The position numbers and the translations under genes are program-made. Source: Roseobacter sp. MED193 (GTDB lineage Bacteria > Pseudomonadota > Alphaproteobacteria > Rhodobacterales > Rhodobacteraceae). From it: a DNA stretch of 64,000 bases. The notes beneath the pieces are model-generated. The model was not told the DNA's origin, did not search any database, and was given only the letters and a program-made list of their open reading frames with translations. Location of the stretch: assembly GCF_000152965.1 (NCBI RefSeq), contig NZ_CH902583.1:1324087-1388086 (forward strand). The letters are read 5' to 3'. Positions 10,611-56,560 of this stretch are shown here, piece by piece (position 1 is the stretch's first letter; every line of letters starts with the position of its first letter).

Positions 10611-10727
10611 GGGTCAAGGAGGCCGCAAGGCCCCGCGCAGCGGCTTGTCCTTGAGGCGCCTGCCTGAACATAATCGTAGCGGGCCCTTTGCGGGGGCAGA
10701 TCTGCCCCTCAAAGGCCTTCTCAGCAG
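10611..10727 (+). repeat. Composite hairpin repeat, copy 1 (short form)
   Basis: First of four copies of an intergenic element. Module A has an outer stem TCAAGG/CCTTGA around two small hairpins (GGCC-gcaa-GGCC and CCGC-gca-GCGG). Module B is the perfect palindrome GGGGCAGATCTGCCCC (10693-10708), followed by the conserved CTTCTCAGCA. The later modules C and D seen in the other copies are missing; the mazG-like gene end begins 24 bases on. It lies inside a minus-strand operon but has the same orientation as the other three copies. Confidence 0.7.
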
Positions 10728-10750
10728 AATCTGCTCCGCAACCAGACTCC

Positions 10751-11065
10751 TTACAGGTAGGAGCCCCATTTACGCTGCAGGGCTGTTGCGACATCAATCC
10801 CCTGCCAGTCCGCAAAAAGCAGCACAAAGCCAAACAGATTTGCGACCTCATCCTCCAAATCACCGCGCGATCCTTCGCCCCGTCCCTGACCCACGGATTT
10901 TAAGTAGGCCGCATTAACCTCCCCCAGCTCTTCGCTCATCTTACCCAAATACCAGGCAGGGTCTCGATCAATCTGAAACCGCTCTGCATAGAGGTCAGCC
11001 ACCCGGCGCACCAGATCGCTGAGCTGCACAAGAGTAACCGGCTCCTCCGTTGGGTCCTGTGTCAT
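10751..11065 (-). CDS. MazG-like nucleotide pyrophosphohydrolase
   Basis: Small all-alpha NTP pyrophosphatase of the MazG/dUTPase-like fold. The metal-binding motifs EELGE (in KMSEELGEVNAAYL) and EDEVAN (in DLEDEVANLFGFVLL) are both present. The product of 104 residues is a single-domain form. It follows ruvB by 42 bp on the same strand. The substrate cannot be read from the sequence; cleansing of non-canonical nucleotides is the usual guess. Confidence 0.75.
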   Translation of the reverse strand: MTQDPTEEPVTLVQLSDLVRRVADLYAERFQIDRDPAWYLGKMSEELGEVNAAYLKSVGQGRGEGSRGDLEDEVANLFGFVLLFADWQGIDVATALQRKWGSYL

Positions 11066-11107
11066 TGCCGTCTGCTCCGAATCTGTACAAAACGCCGCCT
11101 TGGACCT

Positions 11108-12139
11108 TTAGCCAAACAGATCCGCCGCCCCCTGTGGCGGTGCAATCCCCAGATGGGTCCAGGCCTTTTGCGCCAGCATCCGTCCGCGCGGAGTGCGTTG
11201 GATCAATCCCTGTTGCAACAGGTAGGGCTCGATCACATCTTCCAGTGAGTCGCGGCTTTCACTCAGCGCCGCCGACAGCGTCTCAATCCCCACCGGCCCG
11301 CCGCTGTAGTTTTCGGCAATGAGCCGCAAATAGCGCCTGTCAGCCCCATCGAGTCCCAGCCGATCAACCCCCAGCCGCGTCAAGGCCCCATCCGCCAGGT
11401 CCCGCGTGATGCGCCCATCGCCCTCCACAACCGCAAAGTCCACCACGCGGCGCAGGAGCCGCCCGGCGATCCTAGGGGTGCCGCGTGCGCGCCGCGCTAT
11501 CTCTCGGGCGCCCTCCGCATCCGCAGGCGTTCCCAGTTTGCGGGCATTGCGACTGACGATCTCAAACAGCTCATCCACTGTATAAAATTGCAACCGTGTC
11601 GGAATGCCAAAGCGATCACGCAGTGGCGTGGTCAACAGCCCCATCCGCGTTGTTGCCCCCACCAAAGTAAAGGGTTGCAACTCGATACGCACGGTGCGCG
11701 CTGCCGGCCCCTCCCCGATCACCAGATCCAGTTCAAAATCCTCCAGCGCTGGGTATAGAATCTCCTCTACCACCGGGTTCAGCCGGTGGATCTCATCAAT
11801 GAACAGCACATCGCGGGCTTCCAGATTGGTCAGGATCGCCGCCAGATCACCTGCCTTGGCCAAGACAGGGCCCGAGGTCATGCGGAAATTCACCCCCAAT
11901 TCGCGTGCCACGATCTGCGCCAGGGTGGTCTTGCCCAGGCCAGGGGGGCCGTGAAACAGGGTATGATCCATCGCCTCGCCACGACGGCGCGCGCTTTCAA
12001 TAAAGATGCGCAGGTTAGCGCGGGCCTCAGCCTGGCCAATGAACTCGGAAATCCCTTGTGGGCGCAGGGCGCGATCCCCTTCACCAGAGGCATCTTCGGG
12101 AATTGGGTCCGGGCGCAGGGTTGGGTCAGCGTCGATCAT
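11108..12139 (-). CDS. ruvB: Holliday junction branch-migration helicase RuvB
   Basis: Hexameric AAA+ motor that drives branch migration with RuvA. Walker A GPPGLGKT lies at residues 64-71, Walker B is in [10 protein letters not shown], and the sensor/arginine-finger region includes [18 protein letters not shown]. The winged-helix domain is at the C-terminus. The 343-residue length is normal. Its start codon overlaps the stop of a possible 36-codon frame lying between ruvA and ruvB. Confidence 0.97.
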
Positions 12140-12246
12140 TTCGAGCCCCCCTTACCTGCACGGTCAACCAGTCTCTCCAACGAAAAGGCCGAACAGAACC
12201 CCTCCGCCCAGGGCTGGGCACTGTCCTTGGCTCTCGTCTCAGTCAT
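12136..12246 (-). CDS. Possible small protein between ruvA and ruvB
   Basis: A 36-codon frame starts 5 bases after the ruvA stop and ends in a TGA that shares bases with the ruvB ATG (ATGA arrangement). The peptide begins [17 protein letters not shown]. The exact filling of the ruvA-ruvB gap and the overlapping stop/start favour real, coupled translation. The ribosome-binding site is weak and the peptide matches no family I know. It could equally be a chance frame that carries ribosomes from ruvA to ruvB. Confidence 0.35.
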
Positions 12247-12251
12247 ATCGC

Positions 12252-12941
12252 TCACCCTTTTGGCGCCAAAAGGCGCAGGGCTGCACGGATCAAGGCAGAC
12301 TCGTCAGCATCGGGATTCTCTCCCGCCGCCTCTGCCACAGCTGAGGCCGCATCCGAGGGGCTGTAGCCGAGGTTTCCAAGGGCCGAAAGCGCTCCGGCTG
12401 AGGCTGCCGCTGCGCCGCTGGGCTTCGATGCTGCTTTTCGGGCGGTTTTTTTCGGGGCTGCCGGTTCCACCGGCTCCACCACCGCCTCCAGATCGGCACC
12501 CTCGATGGCATCGGGCAGGCTACCGCCCATCGCCATCACGCCTGGCGCCTTGTCCTTGAGGTCCAGCACAATGCGCTGTGCGGTCTTCGGGCCGACGCCC
12601 TTGGCCGCCTTGACACTGCCCCAATCCCCCAAGGCAATGGCGCGGCTGACACCATCCGGCCCCAGGGTGCCCAGGATCGCCAGCGAGACCTTGGCCCCGA
12701 CGCCCTGAACCGAGGTCAGCAGCCGGTGCCATTCCTTTTCGACCAGCGAAGTAAATCCATAAAGCTGCATCAGATCTTCGCGCACGACCATATCGGTATA
12801 AAGCGTCACCGGCTCGCCCACCCCCGGCAGGGTCATCATGGTACGCTCAGAGCAATAGACCAGATAGCCAACGCCGCGCACATCAATCAGCACATGATCC
12901 GCCGTCCGGTACTCCAGACGTCCTGTGAGCTTGCCAATCAT
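12252..12941 (-). CDS. ruvA: Holliday junction DNA-binding protein RuvA
   Basis: Tetrameric junction-binding partner of RuvB. It begins with the OB-fold segment [31 protein letters not shown]. The helix-hairpin-helix motifs include [13 protein letters not shown] and [19 protein letters not shown]. After an Ala/Lys-rich linker, domain III carries [17 protein letters not shown]. The length of 229 residues is normal. Its ATG overlaps the ruvC stop by 4 bases. Confidence 0.96.
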
Positions 12942-13435
12942 GCCCGCACCTCCCTGAGCTGTCTTTGCTGCGTGCCCCCGTAATAGGCGTGACAGATGGC
13001 AATCGCCAGCGCATCCGCCGCATCGGCCCCCTTAGGCGCACAGCCCGGCAATTGCAGCTTCACCATATGGATAATCTGCTCTTTGCTGGCATGGCCGACG
13101 CCAACCACGGTCTTTTTCACCCGGTTTGGCGCGTATTCCCCGGTTGGCAACCCGGCCTTGGCCAGGGTGAGCAGCGCAACACCGCGCGCCTGCCCCAGTT
13201 TCAAGGTTGCAACACCATCCTTGTTCACAAAGGTCTGTTCAATGGCGGCCTGGGTCGGCGCATAGGCTTCGATCACCTCGGTGACCTGATTGTGTAGCGA
13301 CAACAGCCGCTCCCCCAGATCATCGCCATCAGAGGTGCAGACCCCATTGGCCACATGGCTGAGCCGACTGCCCTGTGATTCGATCACCCCCCACCCAAGG
13401 TTGCGAAGCCCCGGATCAATTCCCAATATGCGCAT
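12938..13435 (-). CDS. ruvC: Holliday junction resolvase RuvC
   Basis: RNase H-fold nuclease that resolves Holliday junctions made by RuvAB. The catalytic acidic residues are visible: Asp7 in MRILGIDPG, the Glu of [11 protein letters not shown] and the Asp pair in [15 protein letters not shown] chose the ATG at 13435 so that the protein begins at MRILGIDPG as in the family; the ATG at 13477 would add 14 unusual residues. The product is 165 residues and heads the ruvCAB operon. Confidence 0.96.
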
Positions 13436-13672
13436 GTTCTGCCCGGCCTCTGCCTGAGTGTTGGTATTATTTTTCAATCAAATAGCACAAAAGGCGAACA
13501 TGTCCAATTGCTTTCCCATCCCCATCTTGGCCACATTTCGCGCGGCTGATTGGCAAGCTTTGGCTCAGACCAGCAAAACCTGTTCCAAAACCGACCCTTT
13601 TCCAGGGAGGCCGCGACATTTCCTGACAGCACCTAAATAGATGTAATTCCGCCTTATTTTTAAGGGCCAAAG

Positions 13673-13691
13673 CTATGCGCAATGCGCATAG
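13673..13691. promoter_or_regulatory. Operator-like inverted repeat before the DUF1127 gene
   Basis: CTATGCGC-AAT-GCGCATAG is a perfect inverted repeat with 8-base arms. It lies in the 369-bp divergent gap between ruvC and the DUF1127 gene (13436-13804), 114 bp before the DUF1127 start. A second hairpin, GCAGCAAC-atccc-GTTGCTGC (13751-13771), lies in the presumed leader. The first resembles a dimeric repressor site. I saw no clear sigma-70 promoter. Confidence 0.5.
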
Positions 13692-13804
13692 GACACATGC
13701 AATTTTCAGCTCTTGTTCCGGCAAAAATTCCACCCTAAATGCGAAAAATCGCAGCAACATCCCGTTGCTGCAAAACAGTTCACTCAGATATGAAGGATGA
13801 GGAT

Positions 13805-14023
13805 ATGGCTGCATTTGACACTACCCGCACCACCTATGGCTCCACCGGCCTGTTTGGCCGTATCGGCATTGCCTTTTACGCCGCGGCAAGCGCTCTCGTA
13901 TCTTGGAATGACGCACGCATGTCCAAGAAAACTCTGAACGCCCTGTCTGATCGGGAACTGGCGGACATCGGCCTGAGCCGTGGCGATATCGAAGACATTT
14001 CTGCTGGCAAGCCAGTTTTTTAG
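13805..14023 (+). CDS. DUF1127 domain small protein
   Basis: Small protein of 72 residues with the C-terminal DUF1127 signature ARMSKKTLNALSDRELADIGLSRGDIE. DUF1127 proteins are common in alphaproteobacteria; some affect phosphate or carbon metabolism and RNA turnover through their arginine-rich helix. I chose ATG 13805 because AAGGATGAGG sits just upstream. The gene stands alone, with its own upstream inverted repeat and a strong downstream terminator. Confidence 0.85.
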   Translation: MAAFDTTRTTYGSTGLFGRIGIAFYAAASALVSWNDARMSKKTLNALSDRELADIGLSRGDIEDISAGKPVF

Positions 14024-14079
14024 GGCCTCTACAGCTTTCGGGTGATCCTGCGTCCTCCCTGCTATGGATCCCCGCACAG

Positions 14080-14111
14080 AACGCCGCGTGCCTCTGGCCG
14101 CGGCGTTTTTG
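14080..14111 (+). terminator. Terminator after the DUF1127 gene
   Basis: Stem AACGCCGCG/CGCGGCGTT (14080-14088, 14099-14107) with a 10-base loop is followed by a run of T. It lies 57 bases past the DUF1127 stop. Confidence 0.8.
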
Positions 14112-14191
14112 TTGGCATCGGTAGACTTGCCCTCTTTGCCCGCAAGCCTGGTTAGGGAACACCATCGCGCTGAAGGGCGCGGCAGAACAGC

Positions 14192-14221
14192 AAAACCGCC
14201 GTGATTGTCCACGGCGGTTTT
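14192..14221 (-). terminator. Symmetrical terminator after the small membrane protein gene
   Basis: A perfect 12-bp stem AAAACCGCCGTG/CACGGCGGTTTT with a 6-base loop works in both directions. It lies about 100 bases past the stop of the minus-strand 114-codon gene and also backs up the plus-strand terminator just before it. Confidence 0.7.
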
Positions 14222-14319
14222 CAGGAATTTGCAGATTTTATGTCAGGCCATCAGCGCCGCCCTGTCAGACTGGCGATTTCCGGGACCAGGCAAGCCAGCC
14301 CGCATATGTATTTGTTGCT

Positions 14320-14664
14320 CTAGCGCAAAATTGGCACGACTTGTTGTGCTGCCCAAATCGAGACAGGATCCGCCTGCATAACCACGGCTCCGACCTGCTC
14401 TATGGCGCTGCCCTCAGCCAGCCTTGCGACGCGCTCGTCGTAGCTGTCAAAGCCGAGCGCGGCCATCAGAAAGGCCTTGAACAACAAAAACGCCACAACA
14501 ATCAGCACAAAGACTTTGCCAGAAATGCTTGAACGGATCTTGCTGGGCTCGATAACGATCAGCCCATCCGATTGAACACGCGCGGTGTAGCCTTGCGAAA
14601 AGCGAGCTTGCTTACTCTGCAAACGAGCCACACGGCCGCGAAACTCTTGATGTTGAACACTCAT
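14320..14664 (-). CDS. Small membrane protein of unknown function
   Basis: A 114-residue protein with one clear membrane helix (about residues 49-70, KVFVLIVVAFLLFKAFLMAAL), a basic N-terminal part and a C-terminal part ending IWAAQQVVPILR. The start is supported by CGGAG 8 bases upstream. I cannot assign it to a family. It stands alone between prmA and the terminator region, on the minus strand. Confidence 0.7.
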   Translation of the reverse strand: MSVQHQEFRGRVARLQSKQARFSQGYTARVQSDGLIVIEPSKIRSSISGKVFVLIVVAFLLFKAFLMAALGFDSYDERVARLAEGSAIEQVGAVVMQADPVSIWAAQQVVPILR

Positions 14665-14768
14665 AAAATTGCTCCGAACTGGCCCCCACCAGCGGATAAA
14701 ATTTTATAGATTCCTACTTCAACGATTCCAAGGCGCTTACATTAAATTAGACTTAAACCTGCGTAAAA

Positions 14769-15641
14769 TCAGGAATCTCGCTGCAAAAGAAGCGTGGTCC
14801 ATTCACCAATAACAGAGCGCTGCACGAGATTGGTTCCATTTTCAGCATAAACGGAAATCACACTATCAGCCTGCTCGTTCAGGATACCGGACAAAATCGC
14901 ATAGCCACCAGGGCGCAGATTCGCGCAAAGATCCGGAGAAAGCGCCACCAGAGGGCCTTTGAGGATATTGGCAAAGATCAGATCATAGGGAGCGCGCTCT
15001 TTCAGGCCAGGATGATCAAAACCAGCGGCCTCCAGGCAGGTCACAGCGCCGGCCATGTCGTTGGCCTTAAGATTGGCCTCCGCCACCTCTACGGCAACCT
15101 CATCGATATCGCTGGCGACAAAATCGCCCTCCCAGACCCGTGCAGCCGCCATGGCCAGCACAGCGGTACCACAACCGATATCCGCCACTTTGGCACCGAC
15201 AAACCCATCTGAAATGAGATGATCCAGCGCCTTTAGGCAGCCCAGCGTTGTTCCATGATGCCCGGTACCAAAAGCCATTGCCGCCTCGATCAGCAGTGGG
15301 ATCCGCCCCGCGGGAACGGTTTCGGCGTCATGGCTGCCGTAGACATAGAACCGACCCGCCTCTACCGGTGCCAGTTCGCGGCGCACATGGGCCACCCAAT
15401 CGGTTTCCGGCAGTTCCGAGACAGCGAATTCCTTGGCTCCATGCAGCGTCGCCAGCAGTGCCAGCCCAGCCTGGTCCGGTGCTTCGGTGAAATAACCGCC
15501 CACTTCCCACAGCCCCGAGCCATCTTCCACCTCAAAAACGCCCACCCCGGTGGGTTCGGGCATCAGTGTCTCCATCGCCTCGCCCAGGGCTTCGGCTTGA
15601 GGTTTGCCAGGCAGGGTGGTCAGGGCGGTAAAGGTGGGCAT
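14769..15641 (-). CDS. prmA: Ribosomal protein L11 methyltransferase PrmA
   Basis: Class I SAM-dependent methyltransferase that trimethylates L11. The SAM-binding motif is VADIGCGTAVLAMAAARVW; the substrate-site segment DLIFANILKGPLVAL is the PrmA form of NPP-like motif IV. I chose ATG 15641, which has GGAG 8 bases upstream and removes 13 implausible residues. The product is 290 residues, normal for the family. Confidence 0.92.
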   Translation of the reverse strand: MPTFTALTTLPGKPQAEALGEAMETLMPEPTGVGVFEVEDGSGLWEVGGYFTEAPDQAGLALLATLHGAKEFAVSELPETDWVAHVRRELAPVEAGRFYVYGSHDAETVPAGRIPLLIEAAMAFGTGHHGTTLGCLKALDHLISDGFVGAKVADIGCGTAVLAMAAARVWEGDFVASDIDEVAVEVAEANLKANDMAGAVTCLEAAGFDHPGLKERAPYDLIFANILKGPLVALSPDLCANLRPGGYAILSGILNEQADSVISVYAENGTNLVQRSVIGEWTTLLLQRDS

Positions 15642-15696
15642 ATCAGATCTCCAGCTGCGGTGCCCAGCGCCTAGGCCCAAGGGGCCCAGAGGTCAA

Positions 15697-15725
15697 GGGG
15701 AGAGCAGATTTTGGCCGCTCTCCCC
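15697..15725 (-). terminator. Hairpin after the MFS gene, weak terminator
   Basis: GGGGAGAGC/GCTCTCCCC (9-bp stem, 11-base loop) lies between the MFS stop and the prmA start. Only two T follow it on the minus strand, so termination would be weak or factor dependent. Confidence 0.45.
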
Positions 15726-15747
15726 CCTGTTTTCCTAGGTTCCGCCC

Positions 15748-16983
15748 CTATTCGGCAGCCGCGCGGCTACGATACTTGGCAAAGATAGTTTCATTCCCAG
15801 GTTCCGGATGGCGCGGGATCAGACAGGACAGCCCCAGAGAAACCAGCGCCATGGTGGCAGCCAGGGCAAAGACCATTGACGGGGAAACGACCCATAGCAA
15901 CCCCAGCAACACAGGCAGGAAAACGGCTGCAATATGGTTGATGGTGAAGGCTACCGCCGCCGTCGGCGCAATATCCGCCGGGTCTGCGATCTTTTGGAAG
16001 TAGGTCTTCAGCGCCAGAGCCAGGGCAAAAAGCACATGGTCCACCACATAAAGGACAGAGGCCAGCAACACGCCCCAGCCAAACCAGTAAATACCGCCGT
16101 AAAGCGCAAAGACCAGCGCCAGACCGGCATATTCGATGATCAGCGTCCGGCGCTCGCCGAAATAGGCCACAAACCGACCCAGCAAGGGCGCCACCAGAAT
16201 ATTGATCACCAGGTTGATCAGGAACAGGCCTGTCACCTCATGCACGTCAAAGCCAAAGCGCTCCACCATCATAAAGCCAGCAAAGACCACAAAGATCTGC
16301 CGCCGCGCACCTGCCATGAATTGCAAAAGGTAATAGAGCCAATAGCGGCGGCGCAGGATCAACTTCTTGTTCTGCGGCGTTGGCGAGTCAAACTGCGGAT
16401 AGACCAGCAAGCACCCCAGCGCGATCAGCGTGGTCACCCCGCCAGCCGTCATAAAGACCGTATTATAGGTTAGGTCGAAATTTTCCCACAGCAGGACGAT
16501 CAGACCATAGACCACCAGCGTTGCCGCCGATCCTGTCGCAATCAGCCAGCCCAGCATCTGCGGCGCCCGGTCCTTGGGAAGCCATTGCAGCTGCAGCGAC
16601 TGGTTGACCGTCTCATAATAGTGAAACCCGATTGAACTCAGCAATGTGATCATCAAGATCCCGCCGAGTGAGGGAAACCAGGCGGTCAGCATGGTGGCCA
16701 CACCTAGCATCACCAAAGAGATCAGCCCCAATACCTGTTCTCGCACAAACAGGATGATGGCAATAACCCCCACCGCCAAAAAGCCCGGTATTTCGCGCAC
16801 CGTATGCAACAGGCCAATGTCGGCCCCATCAAACTGCGCCACTTCGATGACAAAGTTATTGAGCAGTGCAAACCAGGCATTAAAGGCAATAGGCATGCAA
16901 AGCGCCATCACAAACAGCAATGCTGTCGGTCGGCGCCACAGCGGCAGATCACGGGCCGCATCCAGGGGGAGAGGTTTAAACAT
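15748..16983 (-). CDS. Major facilitator superfamily transporter
   Basis: An inner-membrane protein of 411 residues with about twelve hydrophobic helices, short loops and a central cytoplasmic loop around residues 200-215 (QFDSPTPQNKKLILRRR). The pattern fits an MFS permease; no sugar-porter or antibiotic-efflux signature stands out. The C-terminal tail EPGNETIFAKYRSRAAAE is cytoplasmic. The substrate is unknown. It is a single gene between an orphan lipoprotein gene and prmA. Confidence 0.8.
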   Translation of the reverse strand: MFKPLPLDAARDLPLWRRPTALLFVMALCMPIAFNAWFALLNNFVIEVAQFDGADIGLLHTVREIPGFLAVGVIAIILFVREQVLGLISLVMLGVATMLTAWFPSLGGILMITLLSSIGFHYYETVNQSLQLQWLPKDRAPQMLGWLIATGSAATLVVYGLIVLLWENFDLTYNTVFMTAGGVTTLIALGCLLVYPQFDSPTPQNKKLILRRRYWLYYLLQFMAGARRQIFVVFAGFMMVERFGFDVHEVTGLFLINLVINILVAPLLGRFVAYFGERRTLIIEYAGLALVFALYGGIYWFGWGVLLASVLYVVDHVLFALALALKTYFQKIADPADIAPTAAVAFTINHIAAVFLPVLLGLLWVVSPSMVFALAATMALVSLGLSCLIPRHPEPGNETIFAKYRSRAAAE

Positions 16984-17621: not shown

Positions 17622-17674
17622 TAAAATTCCACCTATTCGGGATTAAGTATACAAGACAGTACTTCTGGTTGAAG

Positions 17675-22063: not shown

Positions 22064-22125
22064 ACTGCTGAATTCCATGCCCGAACAGGCCGATAACCCA
22101 GTCGCCTTCGTGTCGGGGTTTTGCC

Positions 22126-22340
22126 GGGTCAAGGGGCGCAGATCTGCGCCCGCGCCACAGGCGCGGCTTGCCCTTGAGGCTGCCCCCCCCACTTCAGACT
22201 AGTTGCCGTGCGTTTGAGGGCAAACCTGCCCTTAAGCCGCATCTCAGCCGCCTTTTTTCTACAGCGCCGGGCGCCAGCCCGGCGCTGGGCCCAACGGGGG
22301 CAAGGGATCTTTGATCCTGCGGCCCCGGGCGGGAGCCCCC
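22126..22340 (+). repeat. Composite hairpin repeat, copy 2 (full form)
   Basis: Fills most of the 475-bp gap between fsa and the DUF484 gene. Module A: TCAAGG/CCTTGA enclosing GGCGCAGATCTGCGCC and CGCGCC-aca-GGCGCG. Module B: AGGGCA/TGCCCT, then CATCTCAGC. Module C: a 10-bp stem AGCGCCGGGC/GCCCGGCGCT (22263-22286), then GGGCCCAACGG. Next come GGATC-ttt-GATCC (22305-22317) and the terminal GGGCGGGAGCCCCC (module D). Stem sequences differ from the other copies while pairing is kept. Confidence 0.75.
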
Positions 22341-22463
22341 ACTTTGCGGTAACAGCTTCGGCCTTTTCCTGCCCGTAAGACATTTTTAGCCACATTGCGT
22401 CAAAACCCGTGTTATAACCCGGGCGCAAAGCCCAAAGAGGTTCAAGCCCACAAAGGTTCAAGA

Positions 22464-37134: not shown

Positions 37135-37138
37135 GTGA

Positions 37139-41492: not shown

Positions 41493-44345
41493 TTACTCTG
41501 CCGCCTCGACGTAGTCTTCCAATGGCGGGCAGGTGCAGATCAGGTTGCGGTCACCATAGGCATTGTCGACGCGGTTAACCGGCGGCCAGTATTTGTCGAC
41601 GCGGAAGGCGCCGGGAGGAAAGCAGCCCTGCTCGCGGCTGTAGGGGCGATCCCAATCCTTCACCAGATCCTCCATGGTATGGGGCGCATGTTTCAGCGGG
41701 TTATTCTCCGGATCAATCACGCCCTCCTCAATGGCCTGCACCTCGGCACGGATCGACAGCATGGCATCGACAAAGCGGTCCAGCTCGGCCTTGGTTTCTG
41801 ACTCGGTGGGTTCCACCATCAGTGTCCCCGCCACAGGCCAGCTCATGGTGGGGGCGTGAAAGCCACTGTCGATCAGCCGTTTCGCCACATCATCCACCGT
41901 CACGCCAGCGCTCTCGTCAAAGGGACGGGTGTCCAGGATACACTCATGCGCCACCCGGCCTGTCGGCCCCTTGTATAAGACGCCATAGGCGCCCTCCAAC
42001 CGCTTTGCGATATAGTTGGCGTTGAGAATGGCCACCTTGGTGGCCTGGGTCAAACCCTCGCCCCCCATCATCAGACAATAGGCCCAGGAAATGGTCAGGA
42101 TCGAGGCCGACCCATAGGGCGCTGCCGAGACCGGCCCTTGGGCGCCACCCAGTTCAGGGTGGCCCGGCAGATGCGCCACCAGATGTGCCTTAACGCCAAT
42201 CGGCCCCATGCCGGGGCCACCGCCGCCATGGGGAATGGCAAAGGTCTTGTGCAGGTTCAGGTGGCTCACATCACCGCCCAGATCGCCGGGGCGGCTGAGC
42301 CCAACCATGGCGTTCATATTGGCACCATCAATATAGACCTGGCCGCCGTGATCATGGGTGATCTGGCAGACCTCGTGCACGGTTTCCTCAAACACCCCAT
42401 GGGTGGAGGGGTAGGTGATCATGCAGCCCGCCAGATGTGTCGCGTGTTTCTCAGCCTTGGCGCGGAAATCATCCAGATCGATATCGCCATTCTCAGCGGA
42501 TTTCACCACCACAACCTTCCAGCCCACCATCTGGGCCGAGGCCGGGTTGGTGCCATGGGCTGACATCGGGATCAGACAGATATTGCGGTGCGCCTCCCCT
42601 CTCGCCTGGTGATAGGAAGCAATGGTCAAGAGCCCGGCATATTCGCCCTGCGCACCCGAGTTGGGCTGCATCGAGATCGCATCATATCCAGTGATCTGGC
42701 ACAGTTTCGCCGACAGGTCCGTGAGCATCTCACCATAGCCCGCCTGCTGCGCTGCGGGGGCGAAGGGGTGGATATGGGCAAATTCCGGCCAGCTCAGCGG
42801 CATCATCTCGGCCGCGGCGTTCAGTTTCATGGTGCAGGACCCCAACGGGATCATCGCCCGGTCAAGGGCCAGATCACGGTCCGCAAGGCGGCGCATATAG
42901 CGCATCATCTCGGTTTCGGCCCGGTTCATGTGGAAAATCGGATGGCTGAGGTAGTCAGACGTGCGGTGCATATTTTGCGGCACGCGGTACTCTGGCACCA
43001 GCGCATCATCCGTGCGGGTAATGCCAAAGGCGCGCCAGACGGCCTCGGTGGTGTCGCGGCGGGTGGTTTCATCCAGGGTAATGCCAACGCGGGTCTCGCC
43101 AACGCGGCGCAGGTTAATGCCCTCGTCCAGGGCCGACTTCATCACCGCCGCCTGCAAAGGCCCCACATCCACGGTGATGGTGTCAAAAAAGCTCTTGGGA
43201 TCGACCTTGAAGCCCGCCTCTTCCAGCCCACGGGCCAGACGCACAGTTTTGCGATGAATGCGCTGCGCGATGGCCTTCAGCCCCTTGGGACCGTGGAACA
43301 CCGCATACATGGAGGCCATCACCGCCAGCAGCGCCTGCGCGGTGCAGACGTTCGAGGTGGCCTTTTCGCGGCGGATATGCTGCTCGCGGGTTTGCAGCGA
43401 CAGCCGGTAGGCCTTGTTGCCCTGGGCATCAATCGACACGCCGACAATGCGCCCCGGCATTGCTCGTTTGTAGGCATCGCGCGTGGCCATATAGGCCGCA
43501 TGGGGACCGCCCGCCCCCATCGGCACGCCAAAGCGCTGGGTCGAGCCCACCGCAATATCGACCCCCATGGCGCCCGGCTCTTTTAGCAGGGTCAGCGCCA
43601 GGGGATCCGCCGCCACCACACCAATCGCACGGGCCCCGTGCAGCGCCTCCATCTGCGGGGTGAAATCACGCACATGACCATAGGTGCCAGGGTACTGAAA
43701 AAGCGCGCCAAAGACTTGATCCGCCTGCAGCTTGTCCGGATTGCCAACAATCACCTCAATATCCAGCGGCTGCGCGCGGGTTTGCACCACGGCGATGGTC
43801 TGCGGATGGCAGTCGCGATCGACAAAAAACGCCTTTGCCTTGGATTTTGCCAACCGCTGCGCCATGGTCATCGCCTCAGCCGCTGCGGTGCCCTCGTCCA
43901 GCAAGGAAGCATTGGCGACTTCCAATCCGGTAAGGTCTGATATCATCGTCTGAAAGTTCAGCAAGGCCTCAAGCCGCCCCTGGGAGATCTCTGGCTGGTA
44001 AGGCGTATAGGCGGTGTACCAGGCGGGGTTTTCCAGAATATTGCGCTGGATCGCCGGGGGCGTCACCGTGCCGTGGTAGCCCTGACCAATCAGCGAGGTC
44101 ATCACTTGGTTCTTATCCGCCACTTGGCGCATGTGAAACAGCAGCTCACGCTCCGACAAGGGGCGGCCGAACTCCAACGCCGCAGACTGCCGGATCGAGG
44201 CCGGAACTGTGTCGTCGATCAGTGCCTCCAGGCTCTCGGCGCCAACCACCGCAAGCATCTCCTCCATTTCTTCTGGGGAGGGGCCGATATGACGGCGGTT
44301 GGCAAAATCATAGGGCAGATAATCGGTCGGGGTGAAAGACATCAC
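41493..44345 (-). CDS. gcvP: Glycine dehydrogenase (decarboxylating) GcvP
   Basis: P-protein of the glycine cleavage system, a PLP enzyme that decarboxylates glycine and passes the aminomethyl group to the lipoyl arm of GcvH. The PLP-binding lysine is in [18 protein letters not shown]. The two aminotransferase-like halves are in one chain of 950 residues, as in most proteobacteria. It lies 158 bp after gcvH and shares its riboswitch-controlled leader. Confidence 0.97.
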
Positions 44346-44503: not shown

Positions 44504-44863
44504 TTAACCGATGAAGGCCTTGTAGGCGGCTTCTTCCATATAGTCGTCCATGGGGGACATGTCTTCAACCTTAAGCTTGAAGAACCAGGCATCGCCTTGC
44601 GGGTCTTCATTCACCTTGCCGGGGGTCTCGGTCAGGGCGGCGTTGACCTCAACAACTTCGCCGTCCAGCGGCGACAGGATGTCCGACGCGGCCTTGACGG
44701 ACTCAATCACCACAATTTCGTCGTCCTTGGCAAATTCGTCACCAACCTCGGGCAGCTCAATAAAGACCACATCGCCCAGCTGCTCGGCGGCATGGGCCGT
44801 GATCCCCACGGTCACAATTTCGCCGTCCACGTCCAGCCATTCGTGTTCTTCGGTAAATTTCAT
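44504..44863 (-). CDS. gcvH: Glycine cleavage system protein GcvH
   Basis: Lipoyl-carrier protein of the glycine cleavage system, 119 residues. The lipoylated lysine is in [16 protein letters not shown]. The start is at [10 protein letters not shown] (44863); an in-frame ATG at 44872 (MKT) is equally possible, with GGGG 10-11 bases upstream. gcvT is not beside it. A tandem glycine riboswitch (45033-45216) precedes it on the same strand. Confidence 0.95.
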
Positions 44864-45032
44864 CGTCTTCATCCCGTTATGCTTGCCCCGGAGCGCCTTG
44901 CCCGGTGGTTGATCTGGCCTTGCGGCGCCCCAATGAGACACCTGAAATCTGGGGCCGGCTTGATCAGTGGGATCTGGTCAAGTCACTCCGGCATCCCCGC
45001 GCGAGCAGTCCGCCTGCGCGGTTCGATGCCCC

Positions 45033-45216
45033 CTCTGTCCCGGTGCCTGAGATCGTTATCCCTTCGGCGGCTCGAGTTCCCTCGAGCTCTCTCCAGAGTC
45101 TTTCGTGTATAAGGTCCCTTCTGCCTGAGAGTTTCCGGGGCGGTTGCTCCTTCGGCACCGAGCTTGCGGGGCAGGCCAAAGGCCCGACATCACAGCGACG
45201 GTTCTCCCATATACAC
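45033..45216 (-). promoter_or_regulatory. Tandem glycine riboswitch
   Basis: Two glycine aptamers in a row ahead of gcvH-gcvP. Aptamer 1 has P1 arms GTGTATA/TATACAC (45210-45216 with 45105-45111) and the conserved core GCCGAAGGAGCAA and ACTCTCAGGCA. Aptamer 2 has P1 arms CTCTG/CAGAG (45094-45098 with 45033-45037) and GCCGAAGGGATAAC with ATCTCAGGCA. The linker is six bases. A further hairpin, GGCATC/GATGCC with an inner CCGCGC/GCGCGG, lies just after aptamer 2 and may be part of the switch, without a T-run. Upstream is a palindrome GACGCA-AA-TGCGTC (45253-45266). The rest of the gcvH-GS gap (44864-45032) shows nothing else. Confidence 0.93.
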
Positions 45217-50258: not shown

Positions 50259-50431
50259 CCCGGACTGGAGACGGGACGGGGCTCTGGAAAAGACCTCGTG
50301 CAGCGCCTTGGCTCCGGTGGCCCTCCTCCTGTGCCGCTTTCTTTACCGCAGCTGGTGGAGAAGCCCATTGCAAAGCCCGGTCGCGGCGCTAGGCTGGCGG
50401 CAAGTGCTTTTGACTACCGGAGCTTTTCGCA

Positions 50432-50812: not shown

Positions 50813-50930
50813 CCCCTCAAGACCACCGCCCGCGCAGGTTAGAGTTTAACCCGCCAAGGCAGATTTGCTGAACAGATCCCCGGTCCTTTGCCCCTCGCAA
50901 GACCATCCGGATCGCAGGAGAGTTGCGCAT

Positions 50931-51917
50931 ATGAAAATTGCCATCAATGGGTTTGGCCGTATCGGTCGCGCTATTTTGCGCCAGATCCTCACGACGACGC
51001 GCGGCGAGGGGGTCGAGATCGCCCTGATCAATGACATCGCCCCACTGGAGATGTGCGCCTATCTATTTCAATACGACAGCACCTTTGGCCCCTTCCCCCA
51101 TGCGGTAACCCATGGAGACCGCATGCTCCGGGTTCTGGACAAATCCGTCCCGATGTCCCACGAGGCCGATCTCACCCAGGTCGATCTTTCCGGTGTTGAT
51201 GTGGTGCTGGAATGCACCGGCATTGCCCGCAGTTCCGACGTGGCACAACGCGGCCTGGCGGCCGGGGCCGGCAAGGTCTTGATTTCCGGCCCCTCTCCTG
51301 CCGCCGAGCAAACAGTGGTCTTTGGGGTCAACGAGAAGCGACTGGGAGGAGCGCGGATTGTCTCCAACGCCTCCTGCACCACCAATGGGCTGGCCCCTTT
51401 GGTCAAGCTGGTCGACGAAATCGGTGGAATTGAGAGCGCTCATATGACCACCATCCATTGCTACACCAACTCGCAGCCTATGGTGGACGCCCCGCGCGGT
51501 GACTTTGCCCGCTCACGCGCAGGCGCTTTGTCGATGGTGCCAACAACCAGTTCAGCAACCTATCTGATTGATGAGGTCCTACCACATCTCAAGGGCCGGA
51601 TCAGCGGTGCCGCCCTGCGGGTACCGACTGCCAGCGTTTCCGCGGTGGACCTGGTCGCCCGGCTGCAAAAACCGATGGATGAGCCCAGCTTCGTCGCCGC
51701 ACTCAAAACTGGTAGCGAGGCTGCTGAGGTCTTGGGCTGGACCGAAATGCCGCTGGTTTCGTCAGACCTACGCGCCCGCCCGGAATCCCTCATCCTCGCA
51801 GCACCGGAAATTCGGATGGTGGACCCGCAGCAGGTCCGCGTCTTTGGCTGGTATGATAATGAGTGGGGCTTTTCCGCGCGGATGCTGGACGTCGCGCGCC
51901 TGATGGCCAGGTCATAA
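50931..51917 (+). CDS. Glyceraldehyde-3-phosphate dehydrogenase, divergent
   Basis: NAD(P)-dependent dehydrogenase of 328 residues. It starts MKIAINGFGRIGRAILRQIL. The catalytic Cys is in SNASCTTNGLAPL, where the usual second cysteine is Gly. The His is in TTIHCYTNSQ, where most enzymes have HAYT. Phosphate-binding SMVPTTSSAT and the C-terminal WYDNEWGFSARM are intact. It is probably active, but it is a paralogue and may differ in substrate. I chose ATG 50931 (AGGAGAG about 8 bases upstream). Confidence 0.9.
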   Translation: MKIAINGFGRIGRAILRQILTTTRGEGVEIALINDIAPLEMCAYLFQYDSTFGPFPHAVTHGDRMLRVLDKSVPMSHEADLTQVDLSGVDVVLECTGIARSSDVAQRGLAAGAGKVLISGPSPAAEQTVVFGVNEKRLGGARIVSNASCTTNGLAPLVKLVDEIGGIESAHMTTIHCYTNSQPMVDAPRGDFARSRAGALSMVPTTSSATYLIDEVLPHLKGRISGAALRVPTASVSAVDLVARLQKPMDEPSFVAALKTGSEAAEVLGWTEMPLVSSDLRARPESLILAAPEIRMVDPQQVRVFGWYDNEWGFSARMLDVARLMARS

Positions 51918-52043
51918 GAGACCAAAGCCAGACGTACCCGACCGTCGCCACAGCCGCAAAGCCGCCGCGCTCCCCTTGGGCCAGGCGCTGCGCTGTCGCG
52001 CGGCGAGCATAAGACCTCCCCGCCACCTCCTCTGCCGAACACG

Positions 52044-52250
52044 GGGTCAAGGGCAGCCCTGGCTGCCGCGCGGCAGCGCGGTTCACCCTTGAGGCCGGGG
52101 TCGGCGTGGCACACTCAATAACGCCTCTGAGGGGCAGACCTGCTCCTCAGAGGCTTCTCAGCAAAAAAATGCGCCGCGCGAAGCGCGGCGCTGGGCCCAA
52201 CGGATCTTGGCCAATCTTTGATTGTCCTGGATCGGGCGGGAGCCCTCCCC
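52044..52250 (+). repeat. Composite hairpin repeat, copy 3 (full form)
   Basis: Fills most of the 358-bp convergent gap between gap and the permease gene. Module A: TCAAGG/CCTTGA around GGCAGCC-ct-GGCTGCC and CGCGC-ggca-GCGCG. Module B: CCTCTGAGG/CCTCAGAGG (52124-52153), then GGCTTCTCAGC. Module C: GCGCCGCGC-gaa-GCGCGGCGC (52171-52191), then GGGCCCAACGG. Then CAATC-ttt-GATTG (52212-52224) and terminal GGGCGGGAGCCC. Pairing is kept relative to copy 2 with different bases. Confidence 0.75.
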
Positions 52251-52275
52251 TTTCTCAGCTAGGCCCCGCAGAAGG

Positions 52276-53694
52276 TTACAGGCTGCCCTCACCATTCCCG
52301 GCCATACCGCCAGAGACTTCTTCGGTGGCTTCATCCGCCAATTCTGCAGGCAAGATCAGGTTGAGCACAATTGCAATCAACGCGGCGGGCAACAGGCCAC
52401 TGGTCATCAGCACCTTCAGCGTGCCTGGCAGATATTGCACCGCCCCCGGCTCCAGCTGCAGCCCCAAACCAACCGACAGAGAAATCGCAAAGATCACCAT
52501 ATTGCGCCGGTTCCAGTCCACATCGGACAGCATCGAAATACCGGCGGCCACAACCATGCCAAACATCACAATGACACCGCCCCCAAGCACCTCAATCGGA
52601 ATAGTGCGGATGATCGCGCCAACCTTGGGCACCAAGCCACAGAGGATCAGGAACAGCGCCCCGATGGTGACCACATGGCGGCTCATCACTCCGGTCATGG
52701 CGATCAAGCCAACGTTCTGGCTGAACGAGGTATTAGGCAGCCCGCCGAAGATGCCGGCAACAGCCGAGCCCAGACCATCAGCATAGGTTGCCCCGGCGAT
52801 TTCCTTGTCCGTCGCCTCACGCTTGGCCCCACCGCGGGTGATGCCGCTGACATCGCCCACAGTCTCGACCGCCGAAACAAAAGCCATCAGACAGAAGCCG
52901 AGAATGGCAGCAAAGGAGAACTCAAACCCGTATTTGAACGGCACCGGCAGAGCAAAAGAGGCCGCGCGCGACCAGCTGGTGCCAATGGCGTCAAAGGTCA
53001 CCATGCCCATCATCAGAGCATAAATATAGCCGATAATCAGACCCAAAAGCACGGCTGAGACCGACAGCATACCACGTGCAAAAAACTTGAGCCCCAGTGT
53101 GGCAAAGATCACCACCAGAGCCGCCGACCAATTCAACAAAGAGCCATATTCAGGCGTGCCAATCGCAGGCACCCCGCCAGCCGCATATTGAATGCCCACC
53201 TTGACAAGGGCTAGGCCGATCATGGTCACAACCAGCCCGGTTACCAATGGCGGCAGGGCAAAACGGATCTTGCCAATCACCAGCCCCAGAAGCCCATGAA
53301 AGATGCCACCAATCAGCACCCCACCATAAAGCGCCGCCAGGCCATCCACGCCTTTGCCTGCCACCAGTGGGATCATGATCGGCAAAAAGGCAAAGCTTGT
53401 CCCCTGCACGATTGGCAGCGCTGCCCCAACAGGCCCCAGTGTCACAGTCTGCAACAGGGTGGCCACCCCAGCAAAGAGCATCGACATCTGGATCAGATAG
53501 AGCAGCTCTGGGAAGTCCGGTGAGTTGGAGCCAAAGCCAAATCCCGCAGCCCCCGCGACAATGATCGCCGGTGTCACGTTAGAGACAAACATTGCCAGCA
53601 CATGCTGGATGCCCAGCGGCACCGCACGGGCCAGGGGTGGAGTATAATTCGGATCCCGCAATTGCGCGGGCGTTCCTATTGCGCCGTCAGCCAT
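52276..53694 (-). CDS. NCS2 family purine (urate/xanthine) permease
   Basis: Nucleobase:cation symporter-2 family, 472 residues, with about fourteen membrane segments. The family motifs are GIQHVLAMFVSNVTPAIIVAGAAGFG, the central SFSQNVGLIAMTGVMSRHVVTIGA and the preceding GLPNTS. Its place downstream of allA and puuE suggests uptake of urate or xanthine. It follows allA by 84 bp; the gap contains a 15-bp tandem duplication GTCACTCTSGTCAGT (53748-53777). Confidence 0.88.
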   Translation of the reverse strand: MADGAIGTPAQLRDPNYTPPLARAVPLGIQHVLAMFVSNVTPAIIVAGAAGFGFGSNSPDFPELLYLIQMSMLFAGVATLLQTVTLGPVGAALPIVQGTSFAFLPIMIPLVAGKGVDGLAALYGGVLIGGIFHGLLGLVIGKIRFALPPLVTGLVVTMIGLALVKVGIQYAAGGVPAIGTPEYGSLLNWSAALVVIFATLGLKFFARGMLSVSAVLLGLIIGYIYALMMGMVTFDAIGTSWSRAASFALPVPFKYGFEFSFAAILGFCLMAFVSAVETVGDVSGITRGGAKREATDKEIAGATYADGLGSAVAGIFGGLPNTSFSQNVGLIAMTGVMSRHVVTIGALFLILCGLVPKVGAIIRTIPIEVLGGGVIVMFGMVVAAGISMLSDVDWNRRNMVIFAISLSVGLGLQLEPGAVQYLPGTLKVLMTSGLLPAALIAIVLNLILPAELADEATEEVSGGMAGNGEGSL

Positions 53695-53778
53695 TCTTTT
53701 ATTCCCTCGTTCTGTTGGTTATCACGAGCGCCACCTTCTATTGGGGGGTCACTCTGGTCAGTGTCACTCTCGTCAGTG

Positions 53779-54276
53779 TCAGGGTCGCGCCACCACAAAT
53801 GGCGTCTCGAACCAATACTCCTGCAAATTGTCGCCTGCACCGATCCGGTCCACGACCGCAAACAGCCCTGGCGCCTGCAAAGGCGTGAGCACCCCATGCC
53901 AGGTGCCACGATGAAAATTCACCGCCTGCCCCGGCTGGGTTTCAAAGGCCAGTGGCAGTCCCGGCTTGCCACCCTCATCCGGAGCGACGATGACCAAGAA
54001 CCCATGTTCGCTCATCGGGATGAAAGCCTGACTGCCCTCGGGGTGGCGCTCCATCATCGCCAGCGGCATCGGCAAAGCGCGGGGCTCGGCATTGAACAGG
54101 CTCAATCCCGCCCGGCCTTCAAAAAACTCCATCTGCGCCCGGTCATGGTATCGACCACAGAGCCCTTGATTGATGATCTTGTCCGGCTGGCCGGAGTCAT
54201 CCAAGAGATCGCCAAAAGACGCAAAACTCTCAGCGCTCATCGGCTGAATCAGGATCCGGTTCTCAGAGGCGCTCAT
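53779..54276 (-). CDS. allA: Ureidoglycolate lyase AllA
   Basis: Splits ureidoglycolate to glyoxylate and urea. The 165-residue cupin-like protein has FMPM-type segments typical of AllA: ERHPEGSQAFIPMSEHGFLVIVAP and FHRGTWHGVLTPL with the metal-site His residues. Its start overlaps the puuE-uraD stop by 4 bases, so the two are coupled. Together with the aminohydrolase at 49434 it makes glyoxylate from ureidoglycine. Confidence 0.93.
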   Translation of the reverse strand: MSASENRILIQPMSAESFASFGDLLDDSGQPDKIINQGLCGRYHDRAQMEFFEGRAGLSLFNAEPRALPMPLAMMERHPEGSQAFIPMSEHGFLVIVAPDEGGKPGLPLAFETQPGQAVNFHRGTWHGVLTPLQAPGLFAVVDRIGAGDNLQEYWFETPFVVARP

Positions 54277-55691
54277 GCGGGCACCAGATCGCGCAGGCGG
54301 AGTTCAGCTATGCGTTCCACCTGGTTGCAAGCCTCGGCAAATTCCACCACGCGGTCATTGCCGATACGGCGCTCAAAGGCCGCCAGGATCGACGCCTTAT
54401 CATAGTCGCGCACTGCTATGATAAAGGGGAAACCGTGCTTTTCCACGTAGGCGCTGTTGAGTTCGCTAAACCGCGCCCGTTCCGCATCTGTCAGCGCATT
54501 TAGGCCCGCACTGGCCTGCTCTGATGTGCTTTCTGCCGTCAACCGCTTGGCCGCAGCCAATTTGCCCGCCAGATCCGGGTGGGCGGTCAAAACGCCAAGG
54601 CGTTCCTCCTCGCTGGCGGAGCGGAACATACGACACAGCGCACTATGCACACCCCCTGCGGTGTCATGGGCCGGTCCCAATTCCAACCCATGAGCACGTT
54701 CGGCAATCCAGGGAGAATGCTCAAAGATACCCCCAAAAACCTCGACAAAACGCCCGCGCTCCATCTGGCTGGCACGCTCCCGGCGCTGGTGCGGATGCTG
54801 CTTGACCCAGTGGTCGGCAATATCGATGCGGCGCGGACACCAAACATGATCAAAGCCCTGGATATACTCCAAGAACTTCTTCAGCCCCGCCGCCTTGCCA
54901 GGGCGTCCGATCAGACGGCAATGCAAACCGATGTTCATCATCTTGGGCCTGCCCGCCTCTCCTTCGGCATAAAGCAAATCAAAGGCGTCTTTCAGATACT
55001 GAAAGAACTGCTCGCCGGTGATATAGCCGGGCGCTGTGGCAAAGCGCATGTCATTGGCCTCCAGCGTATAGGGGATCACCAGTTGGTCGCGCTCTCCGAC
55101 CTCCAGCCAATAGGGCAGATCATCATCATAGGTGTCTGACACATAGTCAAAACCACCCTCCTCTGCCACCAGGCGAACGGTATTGCTGCTGCAGCGGCCA
55201 GTGTACCAGCCTCTGGGACGTTCACCCACAACCTCTGTATGCAGACGCACGGCCTCAGCAATGGCAGCGCGCTCTTCCGCTTCGGCCATGTCCTTGTGCT
55301 CAACCCATTTCAGCCCATGGCTGGCAATTTCCCAACCCGCCGCCTTCATCGCCGCGACCTGATCAGGCGAGCGTGCAAGGGCGGTAGCAACGCCATAAAT
55401 TGTCAGCGCAATACCGGCTGAGGTAAACATGTCGTGCAGCCGCCAGAACCCCGCCCGCGCACCATATTCATAGATCGATTCCATATTCCAATGCCGCTGC
55501 CCTTCCCAGGGCGCGGCGCCGGCAATATCAGACAAGAAGGCCTCAGACCCAGCATCGCCATGCAGGGTGCAGTTCTCACCGCCCTCTTCATAGTTCAGCA
55601 CGAATTGCACTGCGACGCGCGCGCCTCCCGGCCAGGCGGCATCCGGTGCCTGCGCCCCGTAGCCAATCATATTGCGCGGATATCTGTTCAT
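54273..55691 (-). CDS. PuuE allantoinase fused to OHCU decarboxylase
   Basis: A 472-residue fusion. The first part (about 1-305) is the cofactor-free polysaccharide-deacetylase-like allantoinase PuuE, with QFVLNYEEGGENC, WEIASHGLKWVEHKDM and RPRGWYTGRCSSNT. The second part (about 315-472) is 2-oxo-4-hydroxy-4-carboxy-5-ureidoimidazoline (OHCU) decarboxylase, with the catalytic His in LTAHPDLAGKL and the following STSEQASAGL. It covers OHCU to allantoin and allantoin to allantoate in one chain. I chose ATG 55691 (MNRYPRNMIGYG). Such fusions occur in other proteobacteria. Confidence 0.92.
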   Translation of the reverse strand: MNRYPRNMIGYGAQAPDAAWPGGARVAVQFVLNYEEGGENCTLHGDAGSEAFLSDIAGAAPWEGQRHWNMESIYEYGARAGFWRLHDMFTSAGIALTIYGVATALARSPDQVAAMKAAGWEIASHGLKWVEHKDMAEAEERAAIAEAVRLHTEVVGERPRGWYTGRCSSNTVRLVAEEGGFDYVSDTYDDDLPYWLEVGERDQLVIPYTLEANDMRFATAPGYITGEQFFQYLKDAFDLLYAEGEAGRPKMMNIGLHCRLIGRPGKAAGLKKFLEYIQGFDHVWCPRRIDIADHWVKQHPHQRRERASQMERGRFVEVFGGIFEHSPWIAERAHGLELGPAHDTAGGVHSALCRMFRSASEEERLGVLTAHPDLAGKLAAAKRLTAESTSEQASAGLNALTDAERARFSELNSAYVEKHGFPFIIAVRDYDKASILAAFERRIGNDRVVEFAEACNQVERIAELRLRDLVPA

Positions 55692-55889
55692 GCCTTGTGT
55701 CTCTTTCCTGGTCTCCCAGCCGCTGCCTCTGATCAAAGCTGCAAAAACGGCCTATTCTCTCTTGCTATTGTAAAAGACGCGGCTTCTTTTTCAAATATTC
55801 CCGAATGCACTGTCAAAGCACGGATGTTTGCAGCAAAATCCATAGTCATGCAGGAAAATGCAGCACACATCTGAGGGAGCGCCGCTAAA

Positions 55890-56246
55890 ATGACCGGATA
55901 TCTGACCACCCATGTTCTGGACACCGCCCTAGGCAGCCCTGCTGCCAACCTGCCCATCACACTCTACCGCCTCGAAGGTGAGACTCGCCACAAATTAGCT
56001 CAGATGACCACCAATGCAGATGGGCGCACCGATAGCCCTATCCTGCCTCAGGCAGAGTTCGCCACAGGCAGCTACGAACTGGTCTTTGAGGCTGGCACCT
56101 ACCTCCGGGCCACTGGGCAGGCCGCAAGGGAGCCGCTGTTTCTCGATCAGGTGCCCATCCGCTTTGGCATCAATGACGCCACGGCCCATTACCACGTACC
56201 GCTGCTGCTCTCTCCCTATGGGTATTCCACCTATCGCGGCAGCTGA
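55890..56246 (+). CDS. uraH: 5-Hydroxyisourate hydrolase (transthyretin-related)
   Basis: Hydrolyses 5-hydroxyisourate to OHCU after urate oxidation. It is a 118-residue transthyretin-like protein with the family ends: [12 protein letters not shown] near the N-terminus and the C-terminal YRGS. The catalytic His residues (THVLD and [15 protein letters not shown]) are intact. It is divergent from the puuE-uraD gene across 198 bp. Confidence 0.96.
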
Positions 56247-56303
56247 CCTTATCTCAAGGCCCTCTCCGCTTCCGCCAACCTCCCCACCAGCGGGGATTGA
56301 GCC

Positions 56304-56560
56304 GGGTCAAGGGCGGCAAAGCCGCCGGGCGCAGCCCGGCTTGCCCTTGAGGCGGGGCAATCACCGATACAATCGACAGGGCGTCTTCAGGAGGCAGAAA
56401 ACCTCCTGAAGCGCTTCTCAGCAGTTCATCTTTCCTGTCTCCGCCCGCCGCCTGCCCTTAAAGCCACCGCTCCTAGGCGGCGCAACCGCACCGCGACAGC
56501 GGTGCCGGGCCCAAGGCCGGGGCAGGCCCGCCAGGGCCTGTTTCGGGGGCGGGAGCCCCC
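56304..56560 (+). repeat. Composite hairpin repeat, copy 4 (full form)
   Basis: Fills most of the 333-bp convergent gap between uraH and the LysR gene. Module A: TCAAGGG/CCCTTGA (56307-56313, 56344-56350) around GGCGGC-aaa-GCCGCC and GGGC-gca-GCCC. Module B: CTTCAGGAGG/CCTCCTGAAG (56385-56411), then CGCTTCTCAGC. Module C: GCACCGC-gaca-GCGGTGC (56488-56505), then GGGCCCAAGG. Then CAGGCCC-gcca-GGGCCTG (56523-56540) and GGGGGC-ggga-GCCCCC (56545-56560). Confidence 0.75.

Follow-up and report, generated by a model that had tools for sequence, protein, structure and literature searches.

The window analyzed here, the whole 64,000-nucleotide stretch at positions 1324087 to 1388086 of chromosome contig C1 of Roseobacter sp. 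MED193 (genome G000, 4.67 Mb), carries four copies of a repeat that we call AB. AB is a widespread, unnamed and strongly structured element of a marine bacterial family, and it poses two facts that need a mechanism: a near-absolute polarity against the replication fork, and compensatory evolution in place. A preliminary description of the window had reported one four-copy element with a common order and orientation. The four copies were indeed found at 10611, 22126, 52044 and 56304, all starting with GGGTCAAGG, and the GC hairpin, GGGCCCAA, further hairpin and GGGCGGGAGCCC described for copies 2 to 4 are present there and absent from copy 1. The chromosome, however, holds 14 copies instead of four, and what had been taken for a single element comprises two separate repeats, AB and a 3' part, CDE.

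Structure, copies and distribution of AB

AB spans about 160 nt and consists of a three-way junction (module A) on a basal helix, a conserved linker, a hairpin (module B) and, after B, TCTCAGCA. The basal helix, P1, has approximately 10 to 15 bp and a different sequence in nearly every copy. An internal loop, with GG on its 5' side in 98 of 103 aligned copies and GG (61 copies) or CG (37 copies) on its 3' side, sets this covarying helix apart from the TCAAGG/CCTTGA stem, which bears two covarying hairpins. The outer stem of the preliminary description corresponds to TCAAGG/CCTTGA; it is present, but it is nearly invariant and does not covary, and the covarying helix lies beneath it. The linker reads Y-A-N-M-M-T-n-G-A, with its A conserved in 96 to 97% and its T in 94 to 96% of copies, and keeps a constant distance to hairpin B, whose commonest loop is AGACCT (36/103). 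The copies in the window, with their own-genome matches on G000:C1, are as follows.

AB copy 1: 10610 to 10726, plus strand (1334696-1334812); three-way junction A, linker, hairpin B and TCTCAGCA, with a weak basal helix and no CDE 3' of AB.
AB copy 2: 22125 to 22249, plus strand (1346211-1346335).
AB copy 3: 52043 to 52163, plus strand (1376129-1376249); predicted basal-helix flanks at about 52028-52046 and 52092-52110.
AB copy 4: 56303 to 56423, plus strand (1380389-1380509); predicted basal-helix flanks at about 56288-56306 and 56351-56367.

The 14 own-genome copies, all on the chromosome contig, were obtained at E ≤ 2.1e-13 by a search with a model of modules A and B that had been built from 10 of the genome's copies. 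A 15th match (E of 0.35), antisense to one of the 14, was dropped. The pattern GGTCAAGGN{20,50}CCTTGAGGC occurs 10 times in the genome, versus 0 for the reversed pattern. Folding of window copies 2 to 4, the copies covered by this test, was compared with that of dinucleotide shuffles and gave z values of −4.2, −4.0 and −4.7, with 0 of 200 shuffles folding as well.

Beyond this genome, AB was found in all 12 genomes of the genus, at 6 to 18 copies apiece, and in at least 60 of 394 sampled genomes of the family under a strict filter; the family scan scored nine candidates per genome, and its AB counts are lower bounds. Sampling of 385 genomes across the class gave AB matches in two genomes outside the family (E of 1.3e-6 and 1.5e-5), both with an A-like junction atop a long basal helix. 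Among the named matches listed, most of which are chance matches, those most like the window's genome lie on Pseudophaeobacter and Phaeobacter contigs, with identities of about 79 to 88% over the longer matches. One window copy (52030-52260) served as the query for phages and plasmids: it matched six plasmid records, five from Leisingera and one from Phaeobacter, and none of the 50,697 phage records. Contig C11 of G249 (loci L141 and L299) shares 8,000 bases at 100% identity with a record titled Nocardioides marinus DP1N28-1; as G249 is placed in the window's family, that title or record looks wrong.

The absence of a named family, as the preliminary description had it, was borne out. At gathering scores, Rfam 15 returned for the whole window only a glycine riboswitch elsewhere and nothing for AB or CDE, and at a lax threshold it returned weak, chance-like matches only for 51950-56600. 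No description of the AB family was met in Rfam 15 or in the literature searched, which lay mostly outside subscription journals.

Selection on folding, which had been proposed from the window copies, is upheld by strong covariation across 103 aligned copies from 17 genomes and between same-site copies of different species. The alignment comprises the 14 own-genome loci and 80 stretches around the better-scoring listed matches in 16 other genomes; it covers part of the genomes with matches and underrepresents weak or degraded copies. In it, 94.1% of cells pair, compared with 76.8% after shuffling, and two-sided changes number 426, compared with 109 after shuffling and at most 76 in slid controls. 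These values come from an alignment fitted to the model and are hence biased toward it. The test of P1 is independent of the model, because P1 lies outside it: 7.54 of 10 in-register positions pair across the 103 copies, versus 3.27 when partners are shuffled (3.78 at most in 1,000 shuffles). P1 is weaker in the window's own genome, at 5.43 versus 3.20 (maximum, 4.57).

Polarity, folded strand and turnover

The orientation of AB was compared with the direction of replication. GC skew places the origin of the genome at about 2.2 to 2.36 Mb and the terminus at about 0.2 to 0.4 Mb. The best match to DnaA lies at 2.18 Mb, and the polarity of GGGNAGGG, which we take to be KOPS, the name being carried over from Escherichia coli, agrees with these positions. 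On the left arm, 11 of 11 AB copies lie on the plus strand, and on the right arm two of three lie on the minus strand. Across the 16 other genomes, AB runs against the KOPS majority of its locus, that is, head-on to the fork, at 79 of 83 informative loci (6 ties; the exceptions are L275, L283, L300 and L303). Counted by independent flank groups, this holds for 59 of 61 (5 ties). By GC skew alone, the figure is 74 of 89. The genes of the same loci show no such bias (604:607), and the polarity of AB holds in each gene context (37:3 for +/−, 21:0 for −/−, 16:1 for +/+ and 4:0 for −/+). This blindness to gene direction argues against a role tied to a neighboring gene or a trans-acting RNA, and for either a DNA role linked to the fork or the cell cycle or a strand-biased insertion.

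The strand on which folding is selected was assessed from mismatches. As controls, tRNA (22/22) and RNase P RNA (17/17) of these genomes fold better on their sense strands, with G-U making up 10.6% and 8.9% of predicted pairs. The well-paired columns of the AB core, among which three poorly paired column pairs of 29 (12-36, 140-176 and 151-167) are not counted, hold 25 G-T and 14 A-C mismatches and are almost purely Watson-Crick. Counts of G-T versus A-C favor the plus strand in P1 (29 versus 2, counted in the 77 helices, of 103, that have 7 or more of 10 positions paired), in B (69:31) and in P3 (32:6). An upstream gene on the opposite strand does not alter the P1 signature (7:0, the same three column pairs being left out). 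We infer that the strand under folding selection is the plus strand, the leading-strand template, and that core pairing is unusually strictly Watson-Crick. Folding of the lagging-strand template as single-stranded DNA is disfavored by the excess of G-T over A-C on the plus strand.

The neighborhood of AB is that of gene ends. With genes called from open reading frame length and codon-position GC, 102 copies have both neighbors called, the flanking genes being convergent for 52 of them and divergent for 5; the corresponding numbers among 1,135 gene pairs of the same loci, called with a stricter gene cut, are 240 and 242 (Fisher P of 5e-10 and 1e-5). The upstream gene is on the same strand as AB in 74 of 102 cases, its stop codon often 8 to 30 nt before the element. 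The neighbors are diverse and include P450, an Lrp-type regulator, betA/betB, glyS, glpK and ilvD, names that were read off the proteins without a family search. With AB mostly at gene 3' ends and its neighbors this varied, a riboswitch-type cis-regulatory leader was rejected. In genome G240 (contig C4, about 1581594-1582253), AB on the plus strand adjoins the RNase P RNA gene on the minus strand.

Such a location would suit a 3'-untranslated-region structure that shields the upstream gene's mRNA or ends it, CDE serving as the terminator. The same-strand majority, the closeness of the stop codon, the convergent preference and the CDE tail of six C followed by TTT all speak for it. The upstream gene is, however, reversed in 28 of 102 cases, with unchanged strand signature and fork polarity, and in the +/+ context the plus strand folds no better than the minus strand (mean difference, +1.32 kcal/mol; standard error, 1.21). 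We have downgraded this explanation to an improbable one because polarity and strand signature are independent of gene direction.

Copies at fixed sites allow the evolution of the structure to be followed. Flanking genes divide the 103 copies into 67 groups, and one gene pair may bear AB in up to four genera, as with a P450-like and an Lrp-like gene whose stop codons lie 8 to 23 nt before and 95 to 97 nt after AB. Between orthologous copies (16 groups, 46 nonindependent comparisons, the three poorly paired column pairs excluded), the pair changes comprise 126 that compensate, 26 on one side that still pair and 45 that break the pair, and 12 cells are gapped. At the glyS site, the only one compared for empty sites, the model gives a strong match in 7 of the 12 genus genomes. 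P1 varies in sequence among these seven copies and is predicted to form in them, some positions being mismatched in strict register. By eye, AB is degraded in four of the others (G001, G006, G009 and G010) and absent from G003, so that the site offers degraded copies rather than clean empty sites. The structure is thus under selection wherever it is kept, given the compensatory change in place, while single copies are dispensable, given the degraded and missing copies at glyS. The 12 sequences of this locus (L380-L391) form a natural series for the decay of AB.

The dispersal of AB may also reflect mobility, with AB and CDE as nonautonomous mobile repeats inserted in a replication-strand-specific manner, tolerated mostly at gene 3' ends and served by a putative enzyme in trans. 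This would account for the dispersed copies, the polarity independent of genes, the avoidance of divergent intergenic regions (5/102 versus 242/1,135), the gains and losses, and the abundance of CDE, with up to 135 matches to its pattern in a single genome. It would also fit a gene pair whose AB, relative to the genes, faces one way in the genus (L012, L268 and L283) and the other way in G249 (L300), a case that is not clear-cut: the genus copies are exceptions by position or skew, and L300 is skew-negative and weakly exceptional by KOPS. Against mobility, compensatory evolution at orthologous sites would not be expected of resting copies and makes a mere mobile relic less plausible. Unlike terminal repeats, the basal arms vary between copies. 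The G-T/A-C signature points to the leading-strand template, and not to the lagging-strand template used by IS200/IS605 elements. Finally, the Y1 transposase (PF01797) was not found in the window's genome at E ≤ 0.001. Overall, we regard mobile insertion as rather unlikely. Mobilization of a repetitive extragenic palindromic (REP) element by a REP-associated tyrosine transposase (RAYT), as the preliminary description had suggested, was rejected: besides the missing Y1_Tnp, no clear link with AB emerges in the family at large, where 9 of 60 AB-positive genomes have this domain and 5.8 would be expected by chance.

The CDE repeat, a candidate methylation site and possible roles

CDE, which runs from GGGCCCAA to GGGCGGGAGCCC, is commoner than AB. 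The exact pattern GGCCCAA...GCGGGAGC has 38 matches in the own genome, most of them without AB, versus 1 for the reversed pattern; by position, 29 chromosomal places carry CDE without AB. Conversely, a pattern search placed CDE 3' of AB in 43 of the 103 aligned copies, and the remaining 60 are an upper bound for copies without it, since some carry CDE variants ending in GGGAGT or GGGAGA. In the window, CDE follows three AB copies.

CDE of copy 2: 22262 to 22341, plus strand; C hairpin, GGGCCCAA, D stem and GGGCGGGAGCCCCC; GGCCCAA at 22288, GCGGGAGC ending at 22336.
CDE of copy 3: 52170 to 52248, plus strand; GGCCCAA at 52194, GCGGGAGC ending at 52243.
CDE of copy 4: 56486 to 56561, plus strand, after a spacer of about 60 nt from AB; GGCCCAA at 56508, GCGGGAGC ending at 56556.

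Over 121 copies, CDE folds better on the plus strand (92:29 for the whole repeat and 111:10 for the D stem), and its tail is a hairpin followed by about six C and then TTT. One instance within a coding frame (L086) was left out of the CDE alignment and kept in the pattern and tail counts. Because its strand preference resembles that of tRNA and RNase P, CDE is probably an RNA element of the plus strand; this separate element, often found 3' of AB, may end transcripts. In the own genome, 31 of 37 chromosomal places follow the orientation bias, or 24 of 29 once AB-linked places and L086 are removed; in the fetched stretches, the counts are 33:8 near AB and only 18:10 alone.

Several loci depart from the usual arrangement. 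At L019 (about 2600900-2601160 of G000:C1), AB on the minus strand and CDE on the plus strand lie near each other, facing opposite ways. One family member, G084, has 135 CDE pattern matches (56 forward and 79 reverse; controls, 2 and 2) and is not among the genomes listed with AB. Several AB copies without CDE (L022, L024, L281, L305, L320 and L322) end in variants of GTGCGCGGTAGCGCTCCTTTT with a terminator-like look. At L307 and L326, AB is followed not by CDE but by G-rich tracts with four GGG runs (for example, GGGCGGGCGGGTGGG) between long inverted arms, possibly a G-quadruplex in a hairpin loop.

A candidate methylation site was found in part of the AB family. In seven genera (G029, G061, G195, G240, G344, G374 and G388), GANTC occupies a fixed P1 position in 31 of 33 copies, versus 2 of 70 for a full GANTC at the same position in the other ten genomes. 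Its context in the 33 copies is C or T at −1 (33), G or T as N (33) and G at +5 (27). PMC7987155 gives the CcrM/GcrA motif as YGAKTCK, with which the fixed GANTC of these genera appears compatible in sequence.

Tentatively, we favor a chromosomal role for AB that is linked to replication or the cell cycle and in which the element is read, wholly or in part, as DNA. The fork would expose or strain the site, upon which the plus strand, as the leading-strand template, would fold. A protein may bind the invariant parts, namely the GG loop with TCAAGG/CCTTGA, the linker YANMMTnGA and TCTCAGCA, and the polarity would be retained because the element works, or is tolerated, only when facing the fork. 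The most likely effect would be fork pausing, re-priming or marking at gene ends, and where GANTC is present, its methylation state would report recent replication. AB could then belong to a previously unknown class, a self-complementary site of some 160 nt with obligatory leading-strand-template folding, facing the fork, evolving by compensation at many gene ends, tied in part to the CcrM/GcrA methylation clock, and pausing, re-priming or marking the fork; this fuller proposal is doubtful, if possible. Were the fork role true, AB would be a folded counterpart of KOPS or Chi, and fork events at bacterial gene ends would be directly testable.

Several observations weigh against this DNA role. 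Whole AB has no strand preference (48 of 103 copies fold better on the plus strand), its predicted folds hold more G-U on the minus strand (7.2% versus 4.2%), and P2 leans the other way in the mismatch count (21:43). The excess of G-T over A-C fits RNA as well as single-stranded DNA. GANTC is missing from the AB copies of the window's genus (1 of 36 in both arms), and its distribution was already known when the seven genera were chosen. Single copies are dispensable, with 4 of 12 degraded and 1 absent at glyS.

AB may instead be a multicopy small-RNA gene, with CCTTGA(C/G) as the −35 element, YANMMT as the −10 element, transcription starting at the basal G of hairpin B, TCTCAGCA as a single-stranded tail, and CDE or another 3' module as the terminator; in the seven genera, GcrA/CcrM would time transcription through YGAKTCK in the spacer. 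The hexamer A and T are conserved in 94 to 97% of copies at a constant distance to B, with G at the expected start in 72 to 85%. TTGANN-hexamer spacing is 15 to 17 in 52 of 67 copies outside the genus, the linker GANTC ends 4 to 7 nt upstream of the −10-like hexamer in 34 of the 36 copies that have it there, and CDE folds as a plus-strand RNA with a tail of six C and TTT. In the genus, however, 15 of 36 copies have a spacing of 11 to 14, short for a usual promoter. A promoter would moreover leave P1 and module A outside the RNA, yet both covary and P1 has the strand signature, and a trans-acting RNA would not need a fixed fork polarity. We consider a small-RNA gene possible, on the unlikely side, and its promoter-like core keeps it a strong rival. 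If it were true, AB would be a multicopy RNA family, perhaps with cell-cycle timing. Of the two natures proposed in the preliminary description, a structured RNA or a chromosome-organizing DNA site, fork polarity and the GANTC of the seven genera lean to the latter for AB, whereas CDE behaves as a plus-strand RNA.

Elsewhere in the window, the glycine riboswitch (RF00504, 46.1 bits) lies at 45025 to 45106 on the minus strand and precedes minus-strand open reading frames at 44504-44941 and 41493-44345, whose sizes, the only feature considered, would fit glycine-cleavage genes.

Comparison with known systems

REP elements are interspersed, intergenic, self-complementary and located mostly at gene 3' ends, and AB resembles them, including the REP-containing bacterial interspersed mosaic elements, in all these respects and in its many intergenic copies. 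AB differs in its length of about 160 nt, in having a junction, four modelled helices and a basal helix with changing stem letters where REP is one short palindrome, and in its compensatory change at orthologous sites, its fork polarity and the lack of a RAYT in the own genome. Unlike a miniature inverted-repeat transposable element, it has no terminal inverted repeats of common sequence, the basal arms differing between copies. CDE may be related to intrinsic terminators, in which a T run directly follows a GC hairpin; its own hairpin is followed by about six C and then TTT.

Two structured intergenic motifs, HRC-8-4 and uORFC-8-2, come from the Rhodobacterales, the same order as the hosts of AB. 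According to PMC8632094, each is tied to one kind of locus (cco/hvrB and cysS, respectively), whereas AB lies among unrelated neighbors. The GcrA/CcrM-controlled promoters of PMC7987155 may share with AB of the seven genera a fixed YGAKTCK-like site beside a −10-like hexamer; in AB, this site lies within a long covarying helix, at many gene ends, and is absent in the window's genus.

KOPS is polar along the replichores in E. coli, and polarity along both replichores is what AB has in common with KOPS and Chi. Those are short, fixed duplex sequences, whereas AB folds, covaries and has a polarity the reverse of that of KOPS.

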